From Candidatus Magnetocorallium paracelense (GTDB lineage Bacteria > Nitrospirota > Thermodesulfovibrionia > Thermodesulfovibrionales > Magnetobacteriaceae): DNA of 64,000 nt. Below are positions 9,339-35,393 of the stretch, one piece after another. The notes under the pieces were generated by a model. The model was not told the origin of the DNA, did no database searches, and saw only the letters and a list, made by a program, of their open reading frames with translations. Numbering within the stretch: the stretch's first letter is position 1; each line of letters begins with the position of its first letter. The stretch covers positions 1 through 64,000 of the forward strand of contig JAREWP010000078.1 of assembly GCA_029001845.1 (NCBI GenBank), written 5' to 3'. The position numbers and the translations under genes are program-made.

Positions 9339-12300
9339 ATGAATAAACCGGTTATTTATATGTTTTCCGGACAGGGTTCCCATTATTATCGGATGGGACA
9401 GGAACTGTTTGAGAAGAATTCCACTTTTAAAAAATGGATGCAGTCGCTGGATCATATTGTAAAAGACCTGGTTGGGCTGTCGATTATCGATCGTTTATAC
9501 GATAAGAAAAATCGCAAGTCCGATCTGTTTAATAAGACAATAATCACTCATCCTGCAATTTTCATGACGGAGTATTCCCTGTACATGACTTTAAGCGAAA
9601 AGAGTATTTCTCCTGATTATGTTATTGGAGCCAGCATGGGTGAGTTTGCAGCGGCTGCTGTTTCCGGGATTCTCGATTACGAAGAGGCTCTCAAGGCAAT
9701 CATAAAACAGGCTGAACTTTTTGAAAATCTGTGTGAACGGGGAGGGATGACAACAATTGTTCATAAGCAGACTCTTCTCAATGAATCTCGTTTACATTTT
9801 AAATATCTAGAGCCGGCCTCTGACAATTATGACGGGCACTTTGTCGTTTCAGGCGGTAACGACCAGTTAAAAGAGATCGAGATGTTTCTGAAAGACAATG
9901 GAATCATATATCAAAACCTCCCTGTTTCTCAGGGATTTCATTCTTCTATGATCGATCCGGCTGAATCTGACTACTGCAAATATCTGTCAGCTATGAATTT
10001 TAAAACCCCTTTTATCCCCTTTGTATCCTGTGCAAAGACAGGAGTTGTCCCGTCAGTGAGCAAAACCCATTTCTGGGAAGTGGTAAGAAAACCGGTAGAG
10101 TTTCAAAAGACCATAAAGAAGTTCGAACAAAGTCAGAACAATATTTACATAGATCTGGGCCCGTCAGGCACTCTCGCTACCTTTGTCAAGTATAATCTGT
10201 CAAAGGATTCCGGATCTGAAATCTTCAGTATCATGACACCCTTCAGCAGGGATCTGAAAAACCTTAAAACAGTGGAAAGCTTCTTTTCTCCTTTAAAACA
10301 ATCGTATAATAGTGAACTTAGCAATAAAACAGCAACGAGAGGTAATGAAATGGAAAAATATGTATTACTCTTTCCCGGTCAGGGATCTCAGGTAAAAGGA
10401 ATGGGGAGAGTTCTGTTTGATAAATATCCTGATTTAACGAACCTGGCTTCTGAAATATTGGCGTACGATCTGAAAGAACTGTGCCTGAATGATCCCGATC
10501 AGAAACTCAATGAAACACAATATACCCAACCCGCTATATATGTTGTGAACGCCCTTGCCTTTTATCAGATGGAAGAGGAAGAGAGGAACACACCGGCCTT
10601 TGCCCTGGGGCACAGTCTGGGAGAGTATAACGCCCTGTTGGCTGCCGGAGCCTTTGATTTTGAGACAGGATTAAAACTGGTAAAAAAACGCGGGGAACTG
10701 ATGAGTGAAGCATCAGGTGGTGGTATGGCTGCTGTTATAGGGATTCCCCCGGAGGAGATAAGGGCGAAGTTGGAGGAAAACAGTCTGAGTGAAGTCTCTC
10801 TTGCCAATTACAATACCCCTACGCAAACGGTTATATCAGGGCCCGATGAAACCGTTAAAAGTGCTGTGTCTGTCCTTAAAGAGAGCGTGAAAAAAGTAAT
10901 GCCCTTAAAAGTGAGCGCTCCTTTTCACTCTCCATATATGGAAGATGCGTCAAAAACCTTTGGAGAGTTTTTGTCGGGCTTTACCTTTAATACTCATAAA
11001 TTCCCCGTAATTTCCAATGTAACGGCAAGACCCTATTTCCCTGAAAAGACAGGCGAATTGCTAACCAGACAGATTAACAGCTCCGTCCTGTGGATGGACA
11101 GCATTCGTTATCTCATGGGACGGGAAGGGGAGCTGAAGTTTACGGAACTGAACAGCAAGATACTGACTCGTATGGTGGATGAGATCAGAAAAAATTGTAC
11201 TCCCATAAGGGATGCTGAGATCACTGAAGAAACAAAAGAACCTGAATCCTCTGCTCCTGCATTTGCGGAAATATCTTCTAAAGAGAAAGAGGAGGATAAA
11301 GATAACCAGATGAAGAGTTCTGAAGAAAGTGTGTCGGAAATGAAAAAAGAGAAATCGTATCAATCACCTTTATCGGAAAGGGCCGTGAAAAAGATTACTC
11401 CCGAAATGCTGGGAAACGCCCGCTTTAGAGGGAAATACGGTTTAGAGTATGCTTACATAGCAGGTTCTATGTTTCGCGGAATCGGTTCCAAAGAGATAGT
11501 TGTAACAATGGCGAATACGGGCATGATCGGATTTCTGGGAACAGGCGGATTGTCGTTAAAGGAGATAGAAGAGAATATTCTGTGGATTCAGGAACAGCTA
11601 ACGGATAACCAACCCTATGGAATGAATCTGCTCCATAATATGATCGAGCCGAAGATAGAGGAGGATAGTGTCGATATCTTTTTAAAACACAATATACGAT
11701 TTGTCGAAGCGTCGGCTTATATGAGAATGTCACCGGCCCTTCTGCGGTATCGTATATCCGGTTTAAGGAGAAACGAAGAGGGTAAAGTGGTTTGTGACAA
11801 TCACATTATGGGCAAGTGCTCGCGGCCTGAAGTGGCGGAGCAGTTTTTGAGTCCCGCTCCTGAGAGGGAAGTGAAGAAGCTTTTTGATCAGGGGAAAATC
11901 ACAGGAGAACAGATGGAGATGGCTAAGGAAGCACCGGTGGCTAATGAAATATGTGTAGAAGCAGACTCCGGCGGCCATACGGATATGGGAATACCTACGG
12001 TGCTTCTTCCGGGAATGTTGAGTTTAAGAAAAAGAATGGAAGAGAAATATAAATATAGTGAGCCGATCTTTATGGGATTGGCCGGGGGGATAGGCTCGCC
12101 GCAGGCAGCTCTGGCGGCGTTTATTATGGGCGCCGATTTTATTCTGACCGGTTCCATCAACCAATGCACCGTTGAGGCGGGCAACAGCGATGCAGTGAAA
12201 GATATGCTTCAGGAGATCAATATCCAGGATACGGAGTATGCGCCGGCCGGAGATATGTTCGAATTGGGCGCTAAAGTCCAGGTATTAAAAAGGGGAGTGT

Positions 12301-12746
12301 TCTTCCCTGCGCGAGCCAACAAGCTCTATCAACTCTATACTCAATATAACAGTCTGGAAGAGATACCGGAAAAGACCAGAAAACAGATCGAGGAGAGATA
12401 CTTTAAAAAAAGTTTCGATCAGGTTTGGAGGGAAACGAGAGAGTATCTTACAGAGCAGAATATGACAGAAGATATAAAGAAGGCGGAAGTGAATCCGAAG
12501 CATAAAATGGCCCTGGTTTTTCGCTGGTATTTCAGCTATTCAACGAGAGTGGCCATGTCAGGCGACACCAACAACAGGGTTGATTATCAGGTTCACACAG
12601 GACCCGCATTGGGCGTATTTAACCAATGGGTAAAAGGGACAGACCTGGAAAGCTGGCGAAATCGTCACGTAGACAAAATCGCAAAAATGATTCTTACTGA
12701 AACAGCAAAATTGCTGGAAAAAGAGATTCATCAGTTTTTAACTTAA
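9339..12746 (+). CDS. AT-AT-enoylreductase tridomain protein (PksE/PfaD type, trans-AT family)
   Basis: The 1135-residue cytoplasmic protein has three domains. The first acyltransferase fold (1-300) has 'FSGQGSHYYRMG', nucleophile Ser99 in 'GASMGE' and a later 'QGFHS'. This is the variant linked to acyl-hydrolase (PedC-like) domains. The second (338-620) has 'FPGQGSQVKGMG', Ser426 in 'GHSLGE' and 'FHSPYM', as in malonyl-CoA:ACP transacylases. A charged Glu/Lys/Ser linker follows. Residues about 685-1130 are a PfaD-type FMN-dependent enoylreductase ('GLEYAYIAGSMFRGIGSKE', 'GGHTDMG', 'GLAGGIGSPQAA'). Such tridomain proteins serve trans-AT polyketide synthases and PUFA synthases, loading malonyl units, removing stalled acyl groups and reducing enoyl intermediates. 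No ketosynthase is in the window. An ATG at 10350 with a nearby AGAGG suggests a past or present internal start. Confidence 0.9.
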   Translation: MNKPVIYMFSGQGSHYYRMGQELFEKNSTFKKWMQSLDHIVKDLVGLSIIDRLYDKKNRKSDLFNKTIITHPAIFMTEYSLYMTLSEKSISPDYVIGASMGEFAAAAVSGILDYEEALKAIIKQAELFENLCERGGMTTIVHKQTLLNESRLHFKYLEPASDNYDGHFVVSGGNDQLKEIEMFLKDNGIIYQNLPVSQGFHSSMIDPAESDYCKYLSAMNFKTPFIPFVSCAKTGVVPSVSKTHFWEVVRKPVEFQKTIKKFEQSQNNIYIDLGPSGTLATFVKYNLSKDSGSEIFSIMTPFSRDLKNLKTVESFFSPLKQSYNSELSNKTATRGNEMEKYVLLFPGQGSQVKGMGRVLFDKYPDLTNLASEILAYDLKELCLNDPDQKLNETQYTQPAIYVVNALAFYQMEEEERNTPAFALGHSLGEYNALLAAGAFDFETGLKLVKKRGELMSEASGGGMAAVIGIPPEEIRAKLEENSLSEVSLANYNTPTQTVISGPDETVKSAVSVLKESVKKVMPLKVSAPFHSPYMEDASKTFGEFLSGFTFNTHKFPVISNVTARPYFPEKTGELLTRQINSSVLWMDSIRYLMGREGELKFTELNSKILTRMVDEIRKNCTPIRDAEITEETKEPESSAPAFAEISSKEKEEDKDNQMKSSEESVSEMKKEKSYQSPLSERAVKKITPEMLGNARFRGKYGLEYAYIAGSMFRGIGSKEIVVTMANTGMIGFLGTGGLSLKEIEENILWIQEQLTDNQPYGMNLLHNMIEPKIEEDSVDIFLKHNIRFVEASAYMRMSPALLRYRISGLRRNEEGKVVCDNHIMGKCSRPEVAEQFLSPAPEREVKKLFDQGKITGEQMEMAKEAPVANEICVEADSGGHTDMGIPTVLLPGMLSLRKRMEEKYKYSEPIFMGLAGGIGSPQAALAAFIMGADFILTGSINQCTVEAGNSDAVKDMLQEINIQDTEYAPAGDMFELGAKVQVLKRGVFFPARANKLYQLYTQYNSLEEIPEKTRKQIEERYFKKSFDQVWRETREYLTEQNMTEDIKKAEVNPKHKMALVFRWYFSYSTRVAMSGDTNNRVDYQVHTGPALGVFNQWVKGTDLESWRNRHVDKIAKMILTETAKLLEKEIHQFLT

Positions 12747-12780
12747 TTCATAAAACAAACCTGAAAAGGAGTCCTTTTCT

Positions 12781-12840
12781 ATGTCAAATTATAAAGGATT
12801 CAGAGGTGAGACTGATTTGAGCACGTTTTTAAACTCCTGA
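12781..12840 (+). CDS. Possible 19-codon leader or remnant ORF
   Basis: ATG at 12781 is preceded by AAAAGGAG at nine bases, the best ribosome-binding site in this locus. The frame encodes 'MSNYKGFRGETDLSTFLNS' and stops at 12840, only nine bases before the start of the acyl-AMP ligase gene. That large gene has no Shine-Dalgarno of its own. The peptide may therefore exist to couple translation, or may be the fused ends of a deleted gene. No homology is recognised. Confidence 0.35.
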   Translation: MSNYKGFRGETDLSTFLNS

Positions 12841-12849
12841 TCGAAAAAA

Positions 12850-15800
12850 ATGCATTCAATCGTAAAATCTCAATCAACCTTTCAACTTCAGACAATATTA
12901 CAAGTACTTGAAGAGCACTCAAAGGTTTCTTCTCAGGAAAAGGCTTACTACTATGTTAACCTTCCCGAAGGAAAACTCAGTTCGATAACATACCGGGAAC
13001 TCTTTTATAACTCTCTGATAACAGCTCATAAAATATCCCGTGTTTGCAAAAAAGAAAGTACGGCTGTTTTGATCTATCCCTCAGGTTTTGAGTTTATATA
13101 CACCTTTTTGGGTTGTCTTTATGCCGGAGTTATCGCGATTCCCATTGCCCTGCCCCGTAGAAACCAAAAGGTCGGACTCTTTGAGTCTATTCTTGATAAA
13201 ACAAAACCCTCTTTGTTACTGACATCCGAAAAAATCTATCACACCACAAAAAGAATAATCGATAACAGTGGTGTTTCCCCGATAACCTGGCTTGATACGA
13301 CTATATATCCACAGTCAAAGGAAAATTCTTTACCTTCCCAAATGAAGCTTCCTGAAATAAATGAAGGTGATCCTGCTTTTTTACAGTTTACATCAGGTTC
13401 TACAAGCTCTCCCAAAGGAGTCATGGTTTCTCATAAAAATATTATAAGTAACCAACAAGTCATCTATCAGGCCTTCAAACATAATAAAAATACTATAGGC
13501 GTAAGCTGGCTCCCCTTTTTTCATGATATGGGACTTATTGGCGGGGTACTACAGCCTTTATTCGGAGGATTTCCCGTATATTTGATGAGTCCGGAATCTT
13601 TTCTGCAATCCCCCATGTCCTGGCTGAAGCTCATTAGTTCGGTAAAAGCAACAACAAGTGTAGCGCCTAATTTTGCTTATGATCTGTGTGCAGACGCTAT
13701 CAGCGATGGAGAGATTGAAAATAATCTGGATCTCTCTTCATGGAATTTAGCTGCCAATGGAGCAGAGCCTGTTCGCTATAAAACCATGGAAAAGTTTTCA
13801 AAGAAGTTTGTTAATGTCGGTTTTAATAAGAGCGCTTTTTACCCTTGTTATGGAATGGCGGAGACCACTTTGCTTATAACAGGCCCTCGCCAACAGCCTT
13901 TTACACATATCACTGTAGACAAAAGTGTCTATTCAAAAGGAAAGCTTCTGAAAGACAAAAACAGTTCCTTTCCATTAGTGTCCTGTGGTTCGACCTGGAA
14001 TAGCCATAAGGTTGTCATTGTTCATCCCGATACCGGAGAAAAAATGCCTGAGGGAAATATAGGGGAGATTTGGTGTCAGGGAGATAGTATTGCAAAGGGG
14101 TACTACAAATCGGAACAGGAAACCAAAGAGACATTTGATTGTTATATTAAAGGTCAGGAAAGATCAGGCCCTTTTTTAAGAACAGGTGATCTCGGTGCTT
14201 TATTGGATGGAGAGCTTTATGTTACGGGACGCAGGAAGGACCTTCTTATTTTTAGAGGCGCCAATTATTATTCCCATGATATTGAGAGTGTCGTGTCATC
14301 ATCGCACGTTAGTTTTACAAAAATTTCCGTTGCATTCACTATATCAGATCCGGAACTTTCTGAAGAAAAATTGATTATACTTCAGGAAATCAAACGGGCT
14401 GACCTGAAAAAGATAAATTCCAATGAAATCTTTAGAAGAATCCTTGAGGAAGTTACCTTCCACTTTGGTATTCCTGTATATGATATTCTCCTTCTCAAGC
14501 CCGGTAAGATATTGCGAACATCGAGCGGCAAAGTAAAACGCCGGAGTAATCGTGAGAACTATTTATCAGGTAAACCGGATTTCATTGCCTCCCTGCTGAA
14601 TGAATCTCAACAAGAAATAACAGATAACCCCGATACTGCCTGTCCCACATCAATCGCCCCCTGGTTGAGCTGGTTAACAGGGGCTATCGCAAAACAAACC
14701 CCTCTTTCCGTTCGTCAGATCAAGCCGGAATCTTCTCTTGAAAGCCTTGGAATGGACTCGATTTCCATTTATAAATTAATTCAATATATAGATGATAACC
14801 TGGCAATAGCCATTCAGGTTGAACATATTTATGAGTTTTCTTCTGTCTATGACTTTGCGGTTTACTTATCAAACCAATATGAAGAAAAAGGAGATAAGAA
14901 TAATATCAGGTGGAGATTACCTGAAATCAACAAGCAGTTCTCTACAGGAAATAAAAGTCTGCAAAACCCTAAAAAAGTTGCTGAATTTTTGGCTAATGAG
15001 ATAGACCCTTTTCTAAGGAATTGGCAAAAAGGGATCATTGTAACTATAGCAACCATTGTTTTTAAAAGGGTATTCAATGCGATTCAAAAAAAGATGTCTA
15101 CCGAGCATATTCTGGAACGTTTACCTTCTTTGACGTCACTCCATTTTACCTCCTCCTCTATACCCTTTGCTCAGTCATTTTTCTTCTGCTCTTACAAAAA
15201 CAGCTATCAACCCTTGACGGAAAGTTTTACTTTTCTTTTATCTTCTCTTTCCTCGTTAATTCATTCCCTGAAGATAAACCGGGAAGACCCGCTGCATAAA
15301 AATGTAGATACGAAAAAGTTGTTTAACTCTTTTTTGTATCCGGCGGCTTCATGTTATGAATTGTGTGTTATTGAAGATGATAAGATTGAAAATCTGTACT
15401 TTTCAATTAATTTAAATGGAGATTTATATGAGTTAAAATTTGGGGAAAGCCTTGTATTAAACAATATAGAGAAGTTTATTGACCATCTTTCAGAGATTCC
15501 CCCTCTCTTTTCAGGCTTTAACCTGGGACGGCATTCACTTGGAAAGCATGGAGAGATCAAAGAGTTTTTGGAGCAAAACGGAGAATCCGGGAAAATGATA
15601 GAGTGGATTCAAAATTCTGTCTGTCACATCATACTTCTCCCTGAAATCACACCTGAAGATGTGAAGGGCGTATGTGAAAAATCCATTGAATTTCAGAGCT
15701 GTGGATGGGCGTTGAAAGGCATGCAGCTCTTTCTTTTTCAGGGCGGTTCTTATAGTTTTTGTGTTAATCACTTGGTAGCGGATGGATTTGATCTCAATCT

Positions 15801-16644
15801 TTTTCATACAAGATTTGCCCAAATCCTGAGTAACTATCAACAAGATGCAGGTCCGGCGTCTAAAAAGAAGCCTCCCCGGGAGATTATTTCCTGCCATGAT
15901 ATGACAAAAGAAAAAATCACCGCGCCATATTCATTTCATGATATCTCATTGCCGCACTTTTATAATCAGTTTCTGAAACCAAAGGACTTCCCCCACTTAA
16001 AGTGTTTTTTGCATTTATGTACTTTTGTTTCTACCTATAAAATGTGGGGAAAGAAACATACTATTCAGGAGTTTATTTCGTATAATAATTCTAAAGGAAG
16101 GGTAGGCGTTGTGTCTCTTAACTGTAAAACAGTAAATGATTTTGTTTCGGAACTGGATGGATTAAAAAGAACAGATCAGCTTTATAATCTCTATTGCAGC
16201 TTTTTTGACTTTTATACAGACAAAATAATGGATGAAAGATTAAACCACACTGCTGCATATTTACTCCTTCCCCTCCTTCTGTCAAGAGAGCACAACTCCT
16301 ATTTTGCCAGGAAATGGGAGCATAATCTTTGGCATCAACCCTATAAAGGGCAACTAAAAAATATCGATAATCTTTTTATCAATTTAGAGGAGGGCTCTTT
16401 TTTTTCGACACCTGAATCTTATTCCCCCATATTTATGGAAAAAGAGTATCAATTTAATGCTTTTAGAGCAGGGACAGGAAGCTCATTCTATTTTTATCTG
16501 AGTCAAAAAAAGAGTGTGATTCATGCAAGGCTTTTGAAGACATTAGGTGATTCGGCCAATTGTCTCATCTCCACTTTGGAATCTGTTCTTCATGATATGA
16601 CTTCAATATTAGAAACCTTTCATCATCTTAAAAAAAGCAGTTAG
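12850..16644 (+). CDS. Fatty-acyl-AMP ligase - ACP - acyltransferase-like protein
   Basis: The 1264-residue protein starts with an adenylate-forming domain of the FAAL type (about 1-590). It has the P-loop 'FTSGSTSSPKG' near 180, 'WLPFFHDMGLIGGVLQP', 'YGMAETTL' and 'RTGDLGAL'. The HDMGL pattern is characteristic of fatty-acyl-AMP ligases, which hand activated fatty acids to a carrier rather than to CoA. A carrier domain follows (about 600-680) with the phosphopantetheine serine Ser637 in 'LGMDSISIYKL'. The final ~550 residues are not a family I can name. They contain 'NHLVADGFD' (973-981), close to the HHxxxDG motif of condensation/CAT-fold acyltransferases, with His974 in the catalytic place. 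Inferred role: load a fatty acid and transfer it to an acceptor together with the AT-AT-ER neighbour. The last residues and stop codon lie within a family A repeat end. Confidence 0.87.
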   Translation: MHSIVKSQSTFQLQTILQVLEEHSKVSSQEKAYYYVNLPEGKLSSITYRELFYNSLITAHKISRVCKKESTAVLIYPSGFEFIYTFLGCLYAGVIAIPIALPRRNQKVGLFESILDKTKPSLLLTSEKIYHTTKRIIDNSGVSPITWLDTTIYPQSKENSLPSQMKLPEINEGDPAFLQFTSGSTSSPKGVMVSHKNIISNQQVIYQAFKHNKNTIGVSWLPFFHDMGLIGGVLQPLFGGFPVYLMSPESFLQSPMSWLKLISSVKATTSVAPNFAYDLCADAISDGEIENNLDLSSWNLAANGAEPVRYKTMEKFSKKFVNVGFNKSAFYPCYGMAETTLLITGPRQQPFTHITVDKSVYSKGKLLKDKNSSFPLVSCGSTWNSHKVVIVHPDTGEKMPEGNIGEIWCQGDSIAKGYYKSEQETKETFDCYIKGQERSGPFLRTGDLGALLDGELYVTGRRKDLLIFRGANYYSHDIESVVSSSHVSFTKISVAFTISDPELSEEKLIILQEIKRADLKKINSNEIFRRILEEVTFHFGIPVYDILLLKPGKILRTSSGKVKRRSNRENYLSGKPDFIASLLNESQQEITDNPDTACPTSIAPWLSWLTGAIAKQTPLSVRQIKPESSLESLGMDSISIYKLIQYIDDNLAIAIQVEHIYEFSSVYDFAVYLSNQYEEKGDKNNIRWRLPEINKQFSTGNKSLQNPKKVAEFLANEIDPFLRNWQKGIIVTIATIVFKRVFNAIQKKMSTEHILERLPSLTSLHFTSSSIPFAQSFFFCSYKNSYQPLTESFTFLLSSLSSLIHSLKINREDPLHKNVDTKKLFNSFLYPAASCYELCVIEDDKIENLYFSINLNGDLYELKFGESLVLNNIEKFIDHLSEIPPLFSGFNLGRHSLGKHGEIKEFLEQNGESGKMIEWIQNSVCHIILLPEITPEDVKGVCEKSIEFQSCGWALKGMQLFLFQGGSYSFCVNHLVADGFDLNLFHTRFAQILSNYQQDAGPASKKKPPREIISCHDMTKEKITAPYSFHDISLPHFYNQFLKPKDFPHLKCFLHLCTFVSTYKMWGKKHTIQEFISYNNSKGRVGVVSLNCKTVNDFVSELDGLKRTDQLYNLYCSFFDFYTDKIMDERLNHTAAYLLLPLLLSREHNSYFARKWEHNLWHQPYKGQLKNIDNLFINLEEGSFFSTPESYSPIFMEKEYQFNAFRAGTGSSFYFYLSQKKSVIHARLLKTLGDSANCLISTLESVLHDMTSILETFHHLKKSS

Positions 16645-17084: not shown

Positions 17085-18554
17085 ATGAAAAGCAAGATGA
17101 GTAAAGGGCGTTTAATTCTGGCAGTGTTTGGAGGATTTTTAATTGCACACCTGCCGGGCGTTGCGTGTTTCGCTCATACTGTGGGCGGGCTCTACGATTT
17201 CGGATACCCGAAAGACGTATATGTCTCCGGCAGCTACGCCTATGCAGCGACTCCCAGCGGAGTCATCAATGTAAAAGGAGGTGTGTACGTTATTGACATA
17301 AGCAACCCCTTAAGCCCGACGTTAAAGACCAAGGTGGAGACACCCGGTTCCCCATGGGGTGTTGATATATCGGGCGTTTATGCCTATGTAGCGGATTACG
17401 ACAAAGGGTTACAGGTCATAGACATAGACCCCGGCAGTACGGATTATCTGACAGTTGTGGCTGATGCGGACACGCCGGGTAAGGCATGGGATGTAGAAGT
17501 ATCAGGCGGCTACGCCTATGTAGCGGATTATGACAAAGGGTTACAGGTCATAGGCATTGACCCCGACAGTGAGGATTACATGACCATCCTGGCCACTGTG
17601 GACACCCCGGGTAAAGCCCGGGATATCTCTGTCGCCGGCGGCTACGCCTACATAGCGGATTATGACAGGGGCTTGCAGGTGGTAGACATAAGCGACCCCT
17701 CAAGCCCTACAATAGCAGGTGAATGGGACTCGACAGAGGAGTCCTGGGGTGTTTATGTCTCCGGCGATTATGCGTATATTGCTGACGGGACCTATGTCTT
17801 ATTACGGGTGATCGATATAAGCAATCCGGCAAACCCATTGTTAAAGGTCACCGTGGAACATAACGATGATCACGGCTTTTATGTGGAAGGATTTGCCTTA
17901 CATGGTTTTGATGACTACATCTATGTGGCGTCGGGTAGTTTTTTGAGTGTCATAGATGTGAGCGATCCTTTGAACCCGGTGGTAAAATCCGGCGCGGACA
18001 CTGAGGGGTGGATAGACGGCATATATGCCACGGAAAACTATGTATACGTGGCTGCGAAAGGTTTGGAGGTATTTTCTACGGCAAGCGGAGGTATTTGCAA
18101 ACCAACTTCCGAGCCAGGCAACTTGCTGGCATTTACCGGCGGTAACCTTGAGATATTCAAGGGGATGACCAAAACCGCAGACCTTTCCGTCTTTGACGGG
18201 GAGATATACGTAGATGGTGAGTATCTCTATGCTGCAGATGGTGAACGGGGTGTTGCCGTGGTAGATGTACATGACCCCGCAAACATCGTGCAGGTCGGTG
18301 GTGTGGATACCCCCGGTTATGCCCACGATATCTACGTATTCGGAGATTACGCCCTTGTGGCTGACGGTTTTGCCGGTCTTCAACTCCTGGATGTGTCCGA
18401 GCGCCATAATCCGAGGATACTGCGTACGCTTGAGCCGGGGGGGAACGTCAAGCGTATCAGGGTGTTCGGAAAGCGTGCGTATATCCTCAATGACGGATAC
18501 ATGCAGATAGTGGATATAAGCACCGCCCGGCAGCCCCGCGCCGTCGGGCGGTGA
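17085..18554 (+). CDS. Secreted LVIVD-repeat beta-propeller protein
   Basis: The 489-residue precursor has a signal peptide (about 1-30) and then roughly ten repeats of about 40-45 residues. The pattern is 'G-x-Y-A-Y-V-A-D-Y-D-x-G-L-Q-V-I/V-D-I-x-x-P', the LVIVD motif of bacterial surface propellers. Two neighbouring repeats near residues 100-170 are almost identical, also at the DNA level, indicating recent duplication. These proteins are extracellular or cell-surface and their ligands are mostly unknown. AGGAGGATTGAGCA precedes the ATG. There is no obvious C-terminal sorting domain. It is convergent with the beta-helix protein gene downstream. Confidence 0.87.
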   Translation: MKSKMSKGRLILAVFGGFLIAHLPGVACFAHTVGGLYDFGYPKDVYVSGSYAYAATPSGVINVKGGVYVIDISNPLSPTLKTKVETPGSPWGVDISGVYAYVADYDKGLQVIDIDPGSTDYLTVVADADTPGKAWDVEVSGGYAYVADYDKGLQVIGIDPDSEDYMTILATVDTPGKARDISVAGGYAYIADYDRGLQVVDISDPSSPTIAGEWDSTEESWGVYVSGDYAYIADGTYVLLRVIDISNPANPLLKVTVEHNDDHGFYVEGFALHGFDDYIYVASGSFLSVIDVSDPLNPVVKSGADTEGWIDGIYATENYVYVAAKGLEVFSTASGGICKPTSEPGNLLAFTGGNLEIFKGMTKTADLSVFDGEIYVDGEYLYAADGERGVAVVDVHDPANIVQVGGVDTPGYAHDIYVFGDYALVADGFAGLQLLDVSERHNPRILRTLEPGGNVKRIRVFGKRAYILNDGYMQIVDISTARQPRAVGR

Positions 18555-18673: not shown

Positions 18674-20815
18674 TCAATCTGCTTCATAAGCACCCAAAGT
18701 GCACGGCTCCGACCTCGGCATCCCTCTTTGATCCGTTGCCGGGCAATTCCACCCGGCTTTCAAAGCAGGGCTTCCCTCCATAGGCGCCATAGTCATTGTG
18801 GGGCCGCCGTTGTCGGCAAGGTCGTTTAAAAGAGGTTCGCCCGTCATAATTCCGTAAGTGCACTCCATATCGTCATACTGCTCAGCAGGATCGGGCCATT
18901 GAAGGTTGTATTCACCATTTCCCGGAGGTGTATTGAAATCCGTACCGGTACAATTAAAGGGCACCCAGATGTTTTCCACTTCATTGGCAATAATCGTGTT
19001 ATTGACTACCAGTGGCGTCACATTGATGATCCCGCTGGCGAACTGGGTGGAGTTGTTTAAAATTGTACAGTTTTGCACTGTACCCGTAACATCACCTTCA
19101 ATAATGATGCCTCCGCCTATGCCTCTCTCCGTATAAGTATCTTTTGGGTAGGCATAATTTCCCGTTATCGTTACATTCGTGAGATCCGCAATTCCAGGTG
19201 CATCCCCGTGGCTCAATATCCATACGCCTACATAAAAGTGAGCTGCGTTATTGGAAATCGTAGAATTTGTAAGAGTTACATGGTTGCCCTGCAGGTAGAG
19301 AGCACCGGCGCCGTTTGGCAACTCTGTGTCCTCATACAGAAGCGTTCTGTTCCCGTCTACCACAGTACGATCTATGATAGAAGGTTCCGTTTCATAACCG
19401 GTTCGAAACACAGCCCCTCCAAGAGCACCGCTTATATTATCTTTAATCGTTAAGCCGCAAAGATTAAGGGTGCGTCCGTTACCGTCCATAACAATGGCGC
19501 CGCCGTTTCCTCCATGGCCCTGTTGTTCGTTATTTTCATCCTGATAATTCGCCCCGTATCCCATTGCGATATTATCTGTAATCGTTGTGTTTACAATAGA
19601 CAACCCCGTATGTAAAGCGCCGACTGCACCGCCGTTTGCAGCCCTGTTACCGACTATCGTGCTGCCTACGATTATAGTCTCTCCCACTCCCACGCCATAA
19701 ACGGCGCCGCCGGCCGCATCAGGGCCTATCTCGGCGGCGACATTATTTATGAACACGGAGTCGATTACAGTAACCGATCCGCCATAGTAATAAATCGCTC
19801 CCCCTCCTCCGTCAATATCATAGCCCAGGCGTGTAAGAGTGCCGGTTGCTCTGGCGTCCTTGAATGTAAGTCGTTGCACTGTGAGATTTGGATATTGCAA
19901 TTCAAAATTACCATTATCCATATTCAGAATACGAGTAGTCCCTCCGCCGCTCAATGTAACCAGCCCTCCGCCGTCTATAACCATATTCTTTGTAATCTTC
20001 TTTTCAGAGGTGACAGTGATAGTTACCGGTTCGGTTCCGCAATTAAATGTGATTATCCCTCCATTCAGAATCGCCCTGTCCAGAGCAGCTTCCGTACAAC
20101 TGCCGGGCGAACCGTCTCCTACTATATAATCTGGAATACTCGTATCCACAAGGTCCACAGGACGCTCGCATATCTCGGCAGGCGGCTCCGGAATATCGTC
20201 TTCGTCCCAGGTCTCAATGGAAACCGCATCGAGCGTCATTGTCTCGTAGTTAAACTCCCACAAAACATTGTATGCCGTCGTAATGGCGTTTTCAGGCTCT
20301 CCCGGTCCGACAGAAACGATTATATTCTTCATCTTGTACTGGCCGGGATTTGAAACCGGCGCTTTGGTTGCACGCCTGAAATCCAAACTCAGATTGTCTC
20401 CAGATACTTTACCAAATGACTTCACAACTTTCGAAGTGTCATTCACCCCTGAACTCCCCTTTCCTTTATCGCACTTTAAACCATTACAGGCAAATATACG
20501 CTGCCCGTCAACAGGTAAAGGCGAAAGGGTTTTTGTACTCGCCACATCGAGAGTCAATGTATTGTAATTAAACTCCCAAACGACCCCATAGTTAACCGTT
20601 CTTAAAATCTCCTGAGTTGCGGGGTTCAGAAAAGAAACGGCAATATCGGCCATCTCATACTGTTCCGGACTAATTACCTGAACACCTCGGGCATCGCTAA
20701 AATCCACGAAAACATTACTCACGGCAATAGAGACGCCCGGCAGACCTGCAGTAAGAGAGATAAACAAAAAAATTACAATAACCACCTTGTTTGCAACTAA
20801 ATTTTTATGACTCAT
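18674..20815 (-). CDS. Secreted parallel beta-helix protein with choice-of-anchor Q-like end
   Basis: From Met at 20815 the product is 713 residues with a signal peptide. Two related N-terminal repeats contain 'QYEMADIAVSFLNP' and 'QYKMKNIIVSVGPG', each followed by 'WEFNYxTxTLDxxS'. A right-handed beta-helix follows (about 230-660), rich in 'GGAV', 'NNSTIxxN' and 'TNVTITGN' ladders. The C-terminus 'GSPALKAGWNCPATDQRGMP' with '..LGAYEAD' matches, from memory, the choice-of-anchor Q ending of large surface and polymorphic outer-membrane-type proteins. The frame extends four residues further, but GGAGGAAAAC directly precedes the 20815 ATG. The function is probably adhesion or glycan interaction, which is inference. 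No autotransporter barrel is present. Confidence 0.85.
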   Translation of the reverse strand: MSHKNLVANKVVIVIFLFISLTAGLPGVSIAVSNVFVDFSDARGVQVISPEQYEMADIAVSFLNPATQEILRTVNYGVVWEFNYNTLTLDVASTKTLSPLPVDGQRIFACNGLKCDKGKGSSGVNDTSKVVKSFGKVSGDNLSLDFRRATKAPVSNPGQYKMKNIIVSVGPGEPENAITTAYNVLWEFNYETMTLDAVSIETWDEDDIPEPPAEICERPVDLVDTSIPDYIVGDGSPGSCTEAALDRAILNGGIITFNCGTEPVTITVTSEKKITKNMVIDGGGLVTLSGGGTTRILNMDNGNFELQYPNLTVQRLTFKDARATGTLTRLGYDIDGGGGAIYYYGGSVTVIDSVFINNVAAEIGPDAAGGAVYGVGVGETIIVGSTIVGNRAANGGAVGALHTGLSIVNTTITDNIAMGYGANYQDENNEQQGHGGNGGAIVMDGNGRTLNLCGLTIKDNISGALGGAVFRTGYETEPSIIDRTVVDGNRTLLYEDTELPNGAGALYLQGNHVTLTNSTISNNAAHFYVGVWILSHGDAPGIADLTNVTITGNYAYPKDTYTERGIGGGIIIEGDVTGTVQNCTILNNSTQFASGIINVTPLVVNNTIIANEVENIWVPFNCTGTDFNTPPGNGEYNLQWPDPAEQYDDMECTYGIMTGEPLLNDLADNGGPTMTMAPMEGSPALKAGWNCPATDQRGMPRSEPCTLGAYEAD

Positions 20816-20994
20816 GTTTTCCTCCATTATGGAATCAGAATTCTTGGTCTGGCAAAGGATATTACTTACAGATTACTATATCTCTCAAAACATATCACGT
20901 TACGATAACTCATGTCAAATTTCAAATCTTCAATGCATAAGACCTGGTAACTGCAGTTGACTTTACCTTGATCACTATGTTTATCTAATTCACT

Positions 20995-27212: not shown

Positions 27213-29642
27213 ATGTTGAAAGGCAGCTATAGAAAAAACATTTTACTTCTCTCCTTTGTCATACTTCTAATGTTTCCTCTGTATAACATCTTCGTAATAT
27301 ACCCCTCTTTTCATCGATTAATCGTTAATAAAACCGAGAATGAGGCTGTGCGACTGGCAAGTTATCTGGCGACAAAAATAATTGTCGGTGAAGATGTAAT
27401 AGACAAAGAACACCTCCCGGCCACTCTCTCTGCCGATGTAAATAAAATCCAAAAGGACTTTGAATTAATCAAATTGAAAATCTTCATGCCCGACGGAGAA
27501 ATCGCTTACTCAACGACTCCCGAAGAGGTTGGTCAGGTGAATGAAAAGAGCTACTTTCATAATATTGTCGCCACAGGAGACGTCTATACTAAAATCGTAC
27601 ATAAACAAACAAAGTCTTTAGAGGATCAGGTCGTAGTAGCAGACGTCGTAGAAACCTATGTGCCCGTAATGAGAGGAGACAACTTTCTCGGCGCCTTTGA
27701 AATATATTATGACATCACCAAAAGCAAAGCAGAGATGGACAGGCTGACAACGCATATTACAGTGATGCTTTTTATTGTTTCATCAGGACTGTTACTGGCT
27801 ATCGTTTTGTTTTTTTTCAAAACAAGCGAACATGTTGCTGACTCCATAAAAATCGGACAACAAAAAAAACGGGCCTATCAATTTACAATACTTCTGTCTG
27901 CTGCCGTCTTTTTCGCCGAGCTCATGATCATGCTTGCCCTGGATTTTTTTACTCCCCAAGTTACCGCCTTTGTCGAGAGTTTAATTGACAGTTTTTTTCT
28001 TGTTTGCATACTTTTTCCTGTGCTCTACCTGCTCACGTTCCGTCCCATGATGTTACAAATAACAAACCTTGAACAAAAGGAGAGATCATTAAGGAAGTCC
28101 GAAAGAGAGTGGTACAACACCTTTAATTCTATATCGGATTTTGTCTCCGTCCATGACAAAGACTTTAAAATTTTAAGGGCCAACAGATCATTGGCCGATT
28201 TTTTGGGCGCCACAATGGAGGATATTACAGGGAAACACTGTTATGAAGTCTTTCATAATACAAGTGTTCACCTGCACAACTGTCCCCATTTCGATACACT
28301 AAAAAGCAGAGAAACCATTGTCAGAGAAGTTGACGATACAGAAAGCGGTCTTTATATGCTTGTAACGACTTCTCCTGTTCACGACGATTCGGGGGAGCTA
28401 ATCGGTTCCGTTCACGTTGCAAGAGATATCAGCGAACTCAAGAAAAAGGAAGAGGAATTGAGGCTGTTCAGGTTTTTAATAGACAACTCCAATGACGCCA
28501 TTTTGATCATCGATCCGACAACAGGAGTTTTCCTCGATGTCAACGAAAAAACATACGATTCATTCGGTTATACTCGCGAACAGCTTTCTTCGATGCGTTT
28601 CACTGATATTGAAGCCGATGACTCTGAAGGAGCGGAGTGGGAGACCCTGGTCGCAAGAGTCAGAGACCGGGAACATATGCTCTTTGAAAGAAAATACAAG
28701 CGCAATGACGGCTCACTTTTTGACGTTGAAGTGAATATCAAATATATCTCCTATATAAAAAGCGACTATATGATTGCCGTTGTAAGAGATATAACGGAAA
28801 AGAAACAATCAGAGATGAATCTTAAAAGAAAATCCGAGGAACTGGAAGAGATGAACCGTAATCTTGAAAATATGGTTGCCAAAGAAACTCGTAAAAGACT
28901 GGACCAGGAACGTCTTTTAATCCAACAATCCAAGATCGCCTCCATGGGAGAGATGATCGGCGCCATCGCCCACCAATGGAGACAGCCTCTAAACGCGTTA
29001 AGCATAATGGTTCAGGAGATTCAGGACGCCTATGAATTTGGAGATCTCGACGAAAAATACATTGATGAAACAGTAAAAAACGCAATGTCTCAAGTACAGT
29101 ATATGTCCAAAACAATCGACGATTTCAGAAATTTCTACAGACATTCTACGGATAAAGAGACTTTCAGTGTTATTAAAGCAGTAAAAAGCGCCGTATCTCT
29201 TCAGGAGGCGCAGCTTAAGCAGAGTCAAATAAATGTAATAATAAACACCGACATCATCGGAAGTTATCGTGTATACGGATATGCCAATGAATTTAAGCAG
29301 GTTTTATTGAACATAATAAGTAATGCCAGAGGAGCAATCATAGAGGCAAGGGAAGAGGGGCTGATAGATAAAGAGAACGGTGAAATATCTATAGACCTCA
29401 CTCAACTTGAGAATCAGATAACCATAAGCATAACCAACAACGGCAAAATAATCCCTGAAGGTATTTTCGACAGAATTTTCGAGCCCTATTTCACGACTAA
29501 AAAAGGTGTTGAAGGCACGGGCATAGGTCTTTACATGTCAAAAACAATCATAGAAAAACACATGGGCGGAAAAATCTACGCAGCCAATGTGGAAGAGGGC
29601 GTAACATTCACAATAGAGCTGGCCGCCAATGAATCCCCGTAA
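27213..29642 (+). CDS. Membrane sensor histidine kinase, PAS-PAS, 'HQWRQPLN' type
   Basis: The 809-residue kinase has a first membrane segment (about 9-31) and a ~150-residue periplasmic sensor. Three further hydrophobic segments between 187 and 275 follow. Two PAS domains (about 300-410 and 420-540) then lead through a coiled coil. The dimerisation/phosphoacceptor helix contains His587 in 'GAIAHQWRQPLNAL', and the HATPase domain ends with 'FEPYFTTKKGVEGTGIGLYMSK'. The 'HQWRQPLN' H-box defines a subfamily also used by the kinases at 35394 and 39365. AAGGAAAATTTTT precedes the ATG. No response regulator directly follows, although the next operon holds receivers. Confidence 0.92.
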   Translation: MLKGSYRKNILLLSFVILLMFPLYNIFVIYPSFHRLIVNKTENEAVRLASYLATKIIVGEDVIDKEHLPATLSADVNKIQKDFELIKLKIFMPDGEIAYSTTPEEVGQVNEKSYFHNIVATGDVYTKIVHKQTKSLEDQVVVADVVETYVPVMRGDNFLGAFEIYYDITKSKAEMDRLTTHITVMLFIVSSGLLLAIVLFFFKTSEHVADSIKIGQQKKRAYQFTILLSAAVFFAELMIMLALDFFTPQVTAFVESLIDSFFLVCILFPVLYLLTFRPMMLQITNLEQKERSLRKSEREWYNTFNSISDFVSVHDKDFKILRANRSLADFLGATMEDITGKHCYEVFHNTSVHLHNCPHFDTLKSRETIVREVDDTESGLYMLVTTSPVHDDSGELIGSVHVARDISELKKKEEELRLFRFLIDNSNDAILIIDPTTGVFLDVNEKTYDSFGYTREQLSSMRFTDIEADDSEGAEWETLVARVRDREHMLFERKYKRNDGSLFDVEVNIKYISYIKSDYMIAVVRDITEKKQSEMNLKRKSEELEEMNRNLENMVAKETRKRLDQERLLIQQSKIASMGEMIGAIAHQWRQPLNALSIMVQEIQDAYEFGDLDEKYIDETVKNAMSQVQYMSKTIDDFRNFYRHSTDKETFSVIKAVKSAVSLQEAQLKQSQINVIINTDIIGSYRVYGYANEFKQVLLNIISNARGAIIEAREEGLIDKENGEISIDLTQLENQITISITNNGKIIPEGIFDRIFEPYFTTKKGVEGTGIGLYMSKTIIEKHMGGKIYAANVEEGVTFTIELAANESP

Positions 29643-29712
29643 AGTGAGAGTATATGGAACAGCTAATCATAGAGCTCAATATTCACTCCCAATAATTAAC
29701 GACCATAAAAAA

Positions 29713-29813
29713 TGTAGGGGCAGACCTGCGTGCCTGCACCGGCGGCAGCTAACGAACAAACGCACCGGAGCAGCGGCACGCGGCCGGGGCGAACACACAG
29801 GTTCGCCCCTACG
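29713..29813. repeat. Repeat family F, copy 2
   Basis: GTAGGGGCAGACCTGCGTGC and GGGGCGAACACACAGGTTCG (continuing CCCCTAC) are the inverted ends. It is the partner of 22806-22910. Confidence 0.85.
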
Positions 29814-29830
29814 AATCATCATAAATAATC

Positions 29831-29894
29831 TTCATACTTTGTGGTGATCCCGAGAATCAAGAATATTTATCTTGCAATCCTCTCTGAAAATTGC
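29831..29894. repeat. Degenerate family E tail
   Basis: TTCATACTTTGTGGTGATCC and a later TCTCTGAAAAT match the tail of the element at 7988-8153. The palindromic core is absent. Confidence 0.45.
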
Positions 29895-30028
29895 CTTTTT
29901 ATCAAGTCGCTACCTGGCGCCCTATGTTACCATCGGGTGAAACAGTTTCATGCTCACTAAAAATCATGTTATTAAAGTGTCTCTTTTGTTAAAATAAAAG
30001 GACTACATTTTTAACAGCAAACCGGATT

Positions 30029-31300
30029 ATGAATAAAACAAATCGTCGCACATTTCTCAGAAAAAGCGCCTCCTTTGGTCTCGGTGTCACTGCTGCGCTT
30101 TCATTCCCCAATATTGTATCGGGCCTGAACAAAAAACCGACCATAAAAGTAGTAGGCACCCACGTTACATTACAGGAGAAACTGAGAAAGAAAGCGGAAA
30201 AGGATTTAGGCATTATAATAGAATTCTACCCGGGCGGAAGCGCTGAAGTTATTCTGAAAGCTACGACAAACCCCTCTTCCTTCGATATCTACGAGCAGTG
30301 GTCCAACAGTATTAAGGTGCTGTGGCAGGCAAACGCCATCCAACCGATTGAAACGAAAAAACTGAAGTATTGGAGCGAAATTAACGATTTAACAAAAAAA
30401 GGAAGAATTTCCCCAAAAGCGAATATAGGACTGGGAGATGCACCATATAAACTACTCTATGTACAGGACAACGAAACCTTGGGTGCAGGTGCAACAGATC
30501 GAATCAGCTTTATGCCATATGTACATAACACGGATTCATTCGGATATAATTCGTCGATTATTGAAAGAGGCGTTCCCTATGAAACCGAAAGCTGGTCATG
30601 GCTCCTGGACACACGATATCAGGGAAAAGTCGCTCTTGTCAACGCCCCCACAATAGGCCTCTTCGATGCCGCTCTGGCAGCAAAATCGCTTGGATTGATC
30701 GATTTTGACAATATGGGAAATATGACCAGAAAAGAAGTTGATGAACTATTTAAAATCATGATCGATTTTAAAAGAAGGGGCCATTTCAGAGGAGTATGGT
30801 CTTCCGTTCCACACTCCGTCGAGCTTATGGAAACCGGGCAGGTCGTTATTCAGAGTATGTTCTCACCCGGTGTTTCGGCATTAAAGGGAAAAGGGATTCC
30901 CTGTATATATGCAGCGCCCAAAGAGGGCTACCGTGCATGGCACGGAGTGATGTGCCTCTCTGCCAAATCCGCCGGAGAACAGAGAGAGGCTGCTTACATG
31001 TTCATGAACTGGTGGTTGTCGGGCTGGCCCGGAGCTTTTATTGCCAGGCAGGGATATTATATTTCCAATCCAGAACGTTCCAGGCCCTTTATGTCAAAAG
31101 CCGAGTGGGATTACTGGTATGAGGGGAAGGAGGCGACCGAGCCGCTTAAGGGTACGGATGGAAAGGTTTCCGTTAATCCCGGAGAGATCAGAACAGGGGG
31201 CTCCTATTCAAAGCGTTTTGAAAACGTGGCCATATGGAATACCGTTATGGATACATATGAGTATACATTATTAAAATGGAACGAATTCGTATTAACCTGA
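30029..31300 (+). CDS. Tat-exported extracellular solute-binding protein (family 1-like)
   Basis: The 423-residue precursor begins 'NRRTFLRKSASFGLGVTAAL', a twin-arginine signal (RRTFLRK). The mature part has the two-lobed substrate-binding pattern of ABC-type family 1/PotD-like proteins: 'KVVGTHVTLQEKLRKKAEKD', 'FDIYEQWSN', 'YVHNTDSFGYN' and 'AAKEGYRAWHGVMCL'-like segments. No permease or ATPase gene is nearby. It instead heads an operon with a histidine kinase 44 bases downstream, so ligand sensing is at least as likely as transport. The ligand is unknown; polyamine-like or carboxylate compounds would be a guess. No strong Shine-Dalgarno precedes the ATG. A lipobox is absent. Confidence 0.85.
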   Translation: MNKTNRRTFLRKSASFGLGVTAALSFPNIVSGLNKKPTIKVVGTHVTLQEKLRKKAEKDLGIIIEFYPGGSAEVILKATTNPSSFDIYEQWSNSIKVLWQANAIQPIETKKLKYWSEINDLTKKGRISPKANIGLGDAPYKLLYVQDNETLGAGATDRISFMPYVHNTDSFGYNSSIIERGVPYETESWSWLLDTRYQGKVALVNAPTIGLFDAALAAKSLGLIDFDNMGNMTRKEVDELFKIMIDFKRRGHFRGVWSSVPHSVELMETGQVVIQSMFSPGVSALKGKGIPCIYAAPKEGYRAWHGVMCLSAKSAGEQREAAYMFMNWWLSGWPGAFIARQGYYISNPERSRPFMSKAEWDYWYEGKEATEPLKGTDGKVSVNPGEIRTGGSYSKRFENVAIWNTVMDTYEYTLLKWNEFVLT

Positions 31301-31344
31301 CAGAGAATGCCTGAAAAAGGGAGGTAAAAAAAATCAAAACCTAT

Positions 31345-33186
31345 TTGAGTCAGAGAGTCAAGCTGAAAAAAAGAATCTATATGGGTTTCATCGCCTCCGC
31401 CCTCTTTTCACTGACTATTATACTTGTCGCTTTCGTTACGTTCAACGGAACGACAAAAGACTTTATCGATTTTGTTGCTTTTAGCAAACACTCTCAAAAC
31501 GACATGGCTATTATAAAAAACATTTCCGAGATACAGAGGCAGGCTCTTGTTTTTACCTATGAAGGATACCTCTCCGCAGCAGAGGCTGTCCACAACATTC
31601 ACTCCGATATGCTGGAGCAAATCAGTAGTGTAAAAGATAGGGACAATAGGAGAGTTGGTGTCATCGAGAGACATCTGAATGCCTATTTTGAGACATTTCA
31701 GCAGGTTGAAAAGGAGAGGCAGCTAAGGACCGAACTGGTAAACCTCGGCTTTCGGAATGCCGCAACAAGAGTTGAAAACAATATTGTCACCTATATGAAG
31801 CAATTGCCGGGCGCCGATGTATCGACAAAAAAGTTTGAGTCCCAAAGAGTATTAAACAGACTTTTACAAGTTGAGAAAAACGTTATCCGATACTTCGATA
31901 CTCTTGACGCATCCAATATCTCCATTGCAAAAGAGAGTATTACAGAGGTAAAGAGAGGATTGGACAGTTTTCTCGACAGGGAAGAGGAGAGTGACTCCGT
32001 GGAGCTTTTAAGACAAACAAAACATTCTCTCGACACCTATGAATCTATTTTTATTGAAGCTGTTCAGCGCACAAGGGGATATCTCTTTCTTGTCAACGTC
32101 GTAATGGCTGCAGAGGCCTATGAGATATTATATAACGCAAAAAAGATGATCGAAGAATCAAACCGGGAAATGGAAACGATCGAAGATGAAATTATATCGA
32201 CTATATATAATGTTACGAAATTTCTTTTGGTAACAGGAAGTGTAATGATAATACTCTTTGTCTTCTTCTCCTATAACATCGTACGAAGTATTACCGAACC
32301 TGTTTTAAAACTGGCCAATACTTTTCATGAGCTTACACAGGGAAGCAAAGAGGCTGAAATTCCCCTTTATGAATTATCAGATGAAATCGGCTCTTTGACC
32401 AAAGCGGCTTCCGTTTTTAAAGAAAAAAACCGGGAGACAGAGGAGTTGCTCAATAAATCGCTGATGTTGACAAAGGAACTGGAGAAAAACAAAGCCGAGC
32501 TTGAACGCTCCAACGATGAATTGGAACAGTTTGTTTACACAGTATCCCACGATCTGAAATCTCCTCTTGTAACAAGCATGGGCTTTATTGGAATTATCAG
32601 AAAACTGGCAGACCAGGGCAAAATGAACCAGGCAGTGGAAAAACTGGATCGTGTCGTTAAGTCGAACGAGAGAATGAGTCAGCTCATTAATGATTTGCTG
32701 GAGCTGAGCCGTGTCGGGCGTATAGATAAGGATAAAAAGCCGGTCGATTTGAATGAGATGTTAACGACATTTAAAGATAATCAACAGACCCGGCTGGAGA
32801 GAGTCGGTCTTACTCTCACCATAAAACCGCAACTGCCTGTCATATATGCAAATGAAAGTCGTATACTACAGGTTTTTGAAAACATTTTAAGTAACACCGT
32901 CAAATATGCCGTCCAGTCGGATTCCCCTTTTCTTGAAATCGGCTCAAAGGAGGAGGAGGATCATTATCTGATTTACTGCAAAGACAACGGGCCCGGCATA
33001 CCGGTGCAGTATCATAAAAAAATATTCGGGCTTTTTTACAGACTCGGAAGTAAACAGGAAGGCACCGGCATTGGCCTGACAGTTGTCAAAAAGGTGATGA
33101 ATTTTCATAACGGAGAAGTGCAGGTAGAATCGGAGGAAGGAAAGGGCGCAACATTCTGGTTGAAATTTCCAAAAAAGAAGGAGTGA
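31345..33186 (+). CDS. Membrane sensor histidine kinase with periplasmic helical domain and HAMP
   Basis: The ~613-residue kinase has a membrane segment near 10-30, about 250 periplasmic mostly helical residues and a second membrane segment near 290-315. A HAMP region, a coiled coil, a HisKA helix with His402 in 'YTVSHDLKSPL' and an HATPase domain ('FENILSNTVKYA', 'GPGIPVQYHKKIFGLFYRLG', 'GTGIGLTVVKK') complete it. It follows the solute-binding protein gene, which it could sense. GGGAGG at 31319-31324 is ideally spaced for a start at 31333, but that codon is ATC; the first conventional start is TTG at 31345. A start-codon change or an unusual AUC start is possible. The stop overlaps the Shine-Dalgarno of the next gene. 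Confidence 0.9.
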   Translation: MSQRVKLKKRIYMGFIASALFSLTIILVAFVTFNGTTKDFIDFVAFSKHSQNDMAIIKNISEIQRQALVFTYEGYLSAAEAVHNIHSDMLEQISSVKDRDNRRVGVIERHLNAYFETFQQVEKERQLRTELVNLGFRNAATRVENNIVTYMKQLPGADVSTKKFESQRVLNRLLQVEKNVIRYFDTLDASNISIAKESITEVKRGLDSFLDREEESDSVELLRQTKHSLDTYESIFIEAVQRTRGYLFLVNVVMAAEAYEILYNAKKMIEESNREMETIEDEIISTIYNVTKFLLVTGSVMIILFVFFSYNIVRSITEPVLKLANTFHELTQGSKEAEIPLYELSDEIGSLTKAASVFKEKNRETEELLNKSLMLTKELEKNKAELERSNDELEQFVYTVSHDLKSPLVTSMGFIGIIRKLADQGKMNQAVEKLDRVVKSNERMSQLINDLLELSRVGRIDKDKKPVDLNEMLTTFKDNQQTRLERVGLTLTIKPQLPVIYANESRILQVFENILSNTVKYAVQSDSPFLEIGSKEEEDHYLIYCKDNGPGIPVQYHKKIFGLFYRLGSKQEGTGIGLTVVKKVMNFHNGEVQVESEEGKGATFWLKFPKKKE

Positions 33187-33190
33187 TTCG

Positions 33191-33646
33191 ATGTCAGAAA
33201 AAGAAGTACAAAGACTTTTACTGCTTGTTGAGGATGACGACGATCATGCAGAAATCGCAGGGTATTATATCACTGAAAACTATAGAGACATAAATCTGAT
33301 GCGATTTTCCGATGGAGATATAGCGATGAAATATCTTGAGAAAATCGGTGAAGATGAGGATAAAAAATATCCCTGGCTGATTTTCCTTGACCTGAAGGTG
33401 CCTAAATACAGCGGTTTTGAAATATTGTCTTTTTTAAAATCCCACAGAATGTTAAAAAGGGTCCCTGTCGTAATATTCACAACATCCAGCGCCAATAAGG
33501 ATATAACAGAGGCCTTTGACAAAGGCGCGAACAGCTATATATCCAAACCGATCGAGCCGGAAGGCTTTGAGACGACAATCAGGCAGATTGTGGATTATTG
33601 GCAGACAAATCAGCATATGCATCTGATAAGCAGTATGAATCAATAA
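33191..33646 (+). CDS. Stand-alone receiver protein (Rcp1-like response regulator)
   Basis: The 151-residue protein is a single receiver domain. Acidic residues are in 'LLVEDDDDH', the phospho-Asp is in 'IFLDLKVPKYSG', and 'VVIFTTSS' and 'SYISKP' supply the Thr and Lys. The length, insertion and 'LKVPKxSGFEIL' wording resemble Rcp1-type regulators that pair with phytochrome-class kinases. It has no output domain and so would relay phosphate or act by binding. AAGGAGTGATTCG overlaps the kinase stop codon, so the two are translationally coupled. Confidence 0.93.
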   Translation: MSEKEVQRLLLLVEDDDDHAEIAGYYITENYRDINLMRFSDGDIAMKYLEKIGEDEDKKYPWLIFLDLKVPKYSGFEILSFLKSHRMLKRVPVVIFTTSSANKDITEAFDKGANSYISKPIEPEGFETTIRQIVDYWQTNQHMHLISSMNQ

Positions 33647-33682
33647 CATTGACGTAAGACCTCTTACCCCTGACGTAATGAC

Positions 33683-35344: not shown

Positions 35345-35393
35345 TTCCCGACACTTTTTTAGAACACTGATTGTGAAGACGATGCGGATTTAA

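Follow-up and report, generated by a model that had tools for sequence, protein, structure and literature searches.

Two adjacent genes encode a fused acyl hydrolase-malonyl acyltransferase-enoylreductase (AH-AT-ER; gene 1) and a fatty acyl-AMP ligase-acyl carrier protein with a long C-terminal region (FAAL-ACP; gene 2), and the first of them is very probably the remote supplier of acyltransferase (AT) and enoylreductase (ER) activities for the polyketide synthase (PKS) assembly lines encoded on three other contigs of the same assembly (C40, C58 and C73). We infer this role by elimination, the main caveat being the gaps in the assembly. The whole model, in which gene 1 would be a remote trans-acting unit for these lines and gene 2 would activate a fatty acid, load it and pass it on, is considered highly probable. 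The original prediction had recognized an acyl-AMP ligase-ACP and AT-AT-ER pair; both open reading frames were correctly located and their domains essentially well read, and the new chemistry proposed for them is not needed.

General features and genomic setting of the gene pair

The window, i.e. the whole stretch of DNA analysed, corresponds to bases 1-64000 of contig C15 (98,304 bases), in an assembly of 6.0 Mb distributed over 103 contigs and 99.6% complete. The two open reading frames follow each other on the forward strand with a gap of 103 bp (Table 1), in which no terminator clearly above background was found on that strand. Promoter-like and terminator-like patterns around the pair are not clearly above those of shuffled sequence, so that co-transcription of the two genes is plausible only.

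The surroundings of the pair are made of regulatory and surface-protein genes, without other biosynthetic gene nearby. Directly downstream are encoded an LVIVD-repeat protein (17085-18554) and a beta-helix protein with a choice-of-anchor Q domain (18674-20827), both likely surface proteins, and genes for PAS histidine kinases, for hybrid receiver-kinases and for a solute-binding protein follow one another at positions 27213-37355 of the window.

Table 1. Coordinates of the two genes, their domains and the AT-like regions of the starter modules
Feature	Position	Strand	Evidence or size
Gene 1, AH-AT-ER fusion	9339..12746	+	1135 aa
Acyl hydrolase domain (PksD/PedC-like), residues 1-319	9339..10298	+	PksD 8avz, E 2.4e-93
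Malonyl acyltransferase domain	10323..11207	+	PksE 5dz7, DisD 3rgi; TIGR00128 above cut-off
PfaD/DfnA-type FMN enoylreductase	11397..12725	+	TIGR02814, 671 bits; DfnA 4cw5, E 3.6e-171
Gene 2, FAAL-ACP with C-terminal region	12850..16644	+	1264 aa
Fatty acyl-AMP ligase (FAAL) domain, residues 12-575	12883..14574	+	PRK05850 and other FAAL models; 7r7e, E 2.3e-121
Acyl carrier domain	14671..14865	+	PF00550, E 4.3e-9
C-terminal region of 575 aa, possible carnitine-acyltransferase-like (CAT-fold) domain	14917..16641	+	PF00755, E 0.011, below cut-off
AT-like regions of starter modules (contigs C40, C58)	L124 aa 536-965; L125 aa 507-963; L128 aa 470-958		

Gene 1 is an intact AH-AT-ER protein

The best solved relatives of gene 1 differ from one domain to the next, being PksD for the first, PksE and DisD for the second and DfnA for the reductase. 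The first domain aligns end-to-end with PksD of B. subtilis and keeps the catalytic Ser99 in a GASMGE motif. Its Gln124, aligned with Gln124 of PksD, sits where malonyl ATs carry the malonyl-binding Arg. The lack of this Arg is the diagnostic sign of an acyl hydrolase, a Gln or His usually taking its place (PMC11775670). Because of this replacement the domain is, by its residues, assigned as an acyl hydrolase rather than an AT, which amends the PedC-like AT formerly proposed at this place; the malonyl AT and the ER proposed for the rest of the protein stand. The second domain (residues ~334-623) has kept both Ser426, in the GHSLGE motif starting at 424, and Arg451, in KKRGELM. The third (residues 688-1129) aligns with the trans-enoylreductase DfnA, scores above the cut-off of TIGR02814 and retains His880 in GGHT (at 878), the motif of the catalytic His in PfaD-type ERs (PMC10921412). 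Gene 1 displays the full set of sequence features expected of an AH-AT-ER, namely the AH Ser without Arg, the AT GHSxGE with its Arg and the ER GGHT. A loss of conserved catalytic residues after alignment had been put forward as a possible argument against the original prediction; the alignments revealed that those of the AH, AT, ER and ACP domains are all kept.

The AH-AT-ER architecture itself is already known, being documented as a trans-acting component of trans-AT PKSs with OzmM and GdsB (PMC11775670, PMC10921412). As compared by description, OzmM and the gladiostatin protein GdsB have the same three domains as gene 1, in the same order and with the same diagnostic residues (PMC11775670, PMC10921412, PMC7756379). 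Gene 1 differs from them by its location on a contig without synthase and as apparently the sole dedicated AT/ER for several lines, and it is this remote and apparently common position that makes it notable. PksD and PksE of B. subtilis and DfnA each align over their full length with one domain of gene 1; in their own clusters these occur as separate or two-domain proteins, whereas in gene 1 all these domains are fused and remote.

Ketosynthases, acyltransferases and enoylreductases across the genome

No ketosynthase (KS) had been noticed within the window, and a search with PF00109 found none there or on the remainder of the 98-kb contig. The genome search for KS, KR and DH genes suggested with the original prediction returned 33 KS matches, of which 21 are distributed over seven genes of C40, C58 and C73. 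These genes combine KS, DH, KR, methyltransferase, enoyl-CoA hydratase and carrier domains, and domain scans revealed no AT or ER match in any of the seven. KS linkers of the trans-AT type (RhiE-like or CurL-like) are present in most of their modules, the RhiE-like ones following most of the KS domains. Genes for an HMG-CoA synthase and an enoyl-CoA hydratase adjoin the synthase of C58, where no AT is present; such a cassette for beta-branching is common in trans-AT clusters. In the phylogenetic tree, the KS of the AT-less genes are set apart from those of C13, C71 and C80.

Searches with PF00698 and TIGR00128 identified complete ATs in gene 1, in FabD (C79) and in cis-AT hybrid genes on C13 and C42, the remaining matches being fragments at or near contig ends. 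Gene 1 is the only complete stand-alone malonyl AT besides FabD, and it also harbours the one PfaD-type ER found in the genome (TIGR02814). With KS genes devoid of both AT and ER on the one side and this single candidate on the other, the earlier suggestion that the pair might work for a distant synthase has good support.

Several points temper the idea of gene 1 as sole supplier. PKS genes are broken at contig ends, one of them (C58b) running off its contig, and another AT could be missing; moreover, FabD could act as malonyl loader of the AT-less lines. An AT-like stretch in three starter modules speaks against reading these lines as AT-less, though its catalytic Ser is replaced. As to the distance, cases of ATs encoded away from their trans-AT cluster exist. 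KS or AT fragments were also observed at or near the ends of contigs C66, C71, C72, C80, C93, C94 and C97, from which it follows that more PKS genes exist than were assembled.

The three AT-less genes with these starter modules (C40:25434, C40:80595 and C58:37008) begin with a KS, a stretch of about 430 aa and a DH. Their starter KS share the active site NAACAAS, keep the Cys and His, form a tight clade and have no loading domain in front. The stretch of ~430 aa displays a local likeness to acyltransferases (E 3e-5 against gene 1 in the case of one copy) and an identity of 33-64% among the three copies; GEGDG or GERDG replaces GHSxG, and the catalytic Ser appears to be lost. The starter KS would need a starter provided in trans, and gene 2 may be one candidate loader. 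This stays a guess because these KS do not cluster, in the tree, with the KS that are linked to FAALs in other genomes. Two further KS, from L126 (aa 332) and L128 (aa 1769), are almost identical in the tree (branch lengths 0.008 and 0.03) despite their location on different contigs (C40 and C58). As the starter KS are close to each other too, this suggests that the AT-less lines were recently duplicated or are recombining.

Gene 2 combines an ordinary FAAL-ACP with a C-terminal region of its own

The FAAL and carrier domains of gene 2 are ordinary and intact, the former matching the solved FAAL 7r7e and the latter presenting LGMDSI at residue 633 with the phosphopantetheine Ser637 (14758-14760); both carry the sequence features expected of a FAAL-ACP. 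They agree with the activation and loading of a fatty acid previously proposed for this protein, a proposal which missed the 575-aa C-terminal region. Domain-profile scans detected neither a KS nor a recognised C domain in gene 2, and nothing in its own genome resembles it beyond the generic level of adenylation domains (best other match E 6e-11, 26% identity).

Relatives of gene 2 were found at 517 places in other genomes, the best 80 of which were analysed. FAAL-ACP loaders such as 7r7e and those of Calothrix (L043) and Prolixibacteraceae (L044) share with gene 2 the FAAL and ACP, at ~40% identity over 640-660 residues, and relatives of this kind continue into aminotransferase, Condensation, KS or other domains, whereas none of them has the 575-aa tail, no open reading frame resembling it being present at the best 80 of the 517 loci. 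Among seven relatives scanned with Pfam, six run on into aminotransferase, Condensation, acyl-CoA dehydrogenase or luciferase-like domains and one stops after the carrier domain. A KS follows the FAAL in 17 proteins (FAAL-ACP-KS) from the best 80 of the 517 loci. FAAL-ACP proteins commonly load PKSs. A search for the same pair in other genomes had been suggested, and no PfaD-type reductase was found in the flanks of these best 80 of 517 FAAL loci.

The only Pfam lead for the tail is PF00755, with 14.8 bits for a curated cut-off of 22.3, and a genome search with this family gave no match at E 0.001. The tail recalls the carnitine/choline acyltransferases of PF00755 by an HxxxDG motif (HLVADG, residues 974-979, 15769-15786), its flanking register and a similar length, at a score below the Pfam cut-off. 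HLVADG aligns, in a weak alignment, with EHVGLDG and EHCLLDG of two genuine bacterial PF00755 proteins, and the STS motif of the family is not recognisable in the tail. A hidden Markov model built on four carnitine acyltransferases did not retrieve the tail significantly. Scoring with a home-made profile, a second attempt made after this negative result and hence counted as weak, gave a z of 4.1, a score reached by none of 300 shuffles, and placed the tail first among 234 decoys, with one tie which is the same protein and with the next decoys close. A single-sequence AlphaFold model, obtained with no alignment, was unusable (mean pLDDT 35). No credible relative of the tail was found across about 1,100 sampled genomes, which included 230 genomes of the class and 395 of the phylum (overlapping sets) searched together with a plasmid collection, as well as the phyla to which two FAAL relatives belong (345 and 195 genomes), searched without positive control. 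The sole match in these genome and plasmid sets is marginal, covering 73 residues with two stops (E 1.6e-4; G284). Judged from its sequence, the tail has about even chances of being an acyltransferase of the CAT superfamily. The release of a polyketide by a cAT domain has a fungal PKS precedent (PMC10901484).

Stand-alone carnitine/choline acyltransferases of bacteria were observed in Calothrix rhizosoleniae (L148, G458) and Actinosynnema (L149, G486), with E values below 1e-150 for PF00755; none was found in 291 further genomes belonging to the same phylum as the former.

Proposed role and alternative explanations

According to the proposed model, the AT of gene 1 would load malonyl units on the carrier domains of the AT-less PKSs of C40, C58 and C73, its acyl hydrolase would clear carrier domains that are stalled or mis-primed and its ER would reduce enoyl intermediates in chosen modules. 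This last activity is assigned to distant modules because no scanned module has its own reductase. The ER of GdsB has similarly been considered able to complement another synthase of the same cell (PMC10921412). Gene 2 would activate a fatty acid as acyl-AMP and bring it onto the carrier domain of the same protein; a starter KS or, through the C-terminal region, an amine or hydroxyl group of a product would then receive the acyl group.

A possibility of some weight, even if on balance doubtful, is that gene 1 serves the distant synthases while gene 2 is a mere neighbour belonging to a separate pathway, such as the acylation of a lipid, a sugar or a peptide. Such a separation would fit with the lack of PfaD-type reductases beside the relatives of gene 2 at the best 80 of the 517 loci, with the dissimilarity between the starter KS of the AT-less lines and FAAL-linked KS, and with a tail unlike the known partners of FAALs. 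It is less easily reconciled with the organization of the two genes, on the same strand, 103 bp apart and without clear terminator, or with the frequent loading of PKSs by FAAL-ACP proteins, which the 17 FAAL-ACP-KS proteins among the best 80 of 517 loci illustrate.

The original prediction had also envisaged the reduction and transfer of an unsaturated acyl chain without elongation, in which gene 2 would load the unsaturated fatty acid, the ER of gene 1 would saturate it and an acyltransferase would pass it on. The adjacency of the genes on one strand of a contig without KS, the carrier domain of gene 2 and its possible acyltransferase-like tail are all compatible with a self-contained route. 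A complete PksE-type malonyl AT with its malonyl-binding Arg would however be needless without elongation, and AT-less, ER-less synthases needing exactly the activities of gene 1 are present in the genome. No positive support was obtained for this undescribed route, and the absence of KS on which it rests holds for the window and the contig only and not for the genome; we give it very little credence. It is also very improbable that the pair was left behind when a cluster was lost or rearranged and now serves nothing: its isolation among regulatory and surface-protein genes could suggest so, but both frames are long and intact, the catalytic residues are kept and synthases needing an AT persist in the genome.

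Conclusions

The remote supply of the AT-less lines by gene 1, with gene 2 as a fatty acid loader, is the reading that we retain. We consider it unlikely that the pair represents both one remote two-gene supply unit for several paralogous trans-AT lines, in charge of activating the starter, loading extender units, proofreading and reducing enoyl groups, and a new bacterial carnitine-acyltransferase-like domain on a FAAL-ACP, passing the fatty acyl chain to the polyketide or another acceptor. What may be new is smaller, and consists of one remote AH-AT-ER apparently common to paralogous lines and of a loader tail without credible relative in the genomes sampled. Within the pair, only this tail could harbour new biochemistry. 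When the synthases are located elsewhere in the genome, as here, a window without KS does not argue for new chemistry. If several lines depend on one distant AH-AT-ER, genome mining based on clusters would miss the link between them, and several products should be lost together in a single knock-out.
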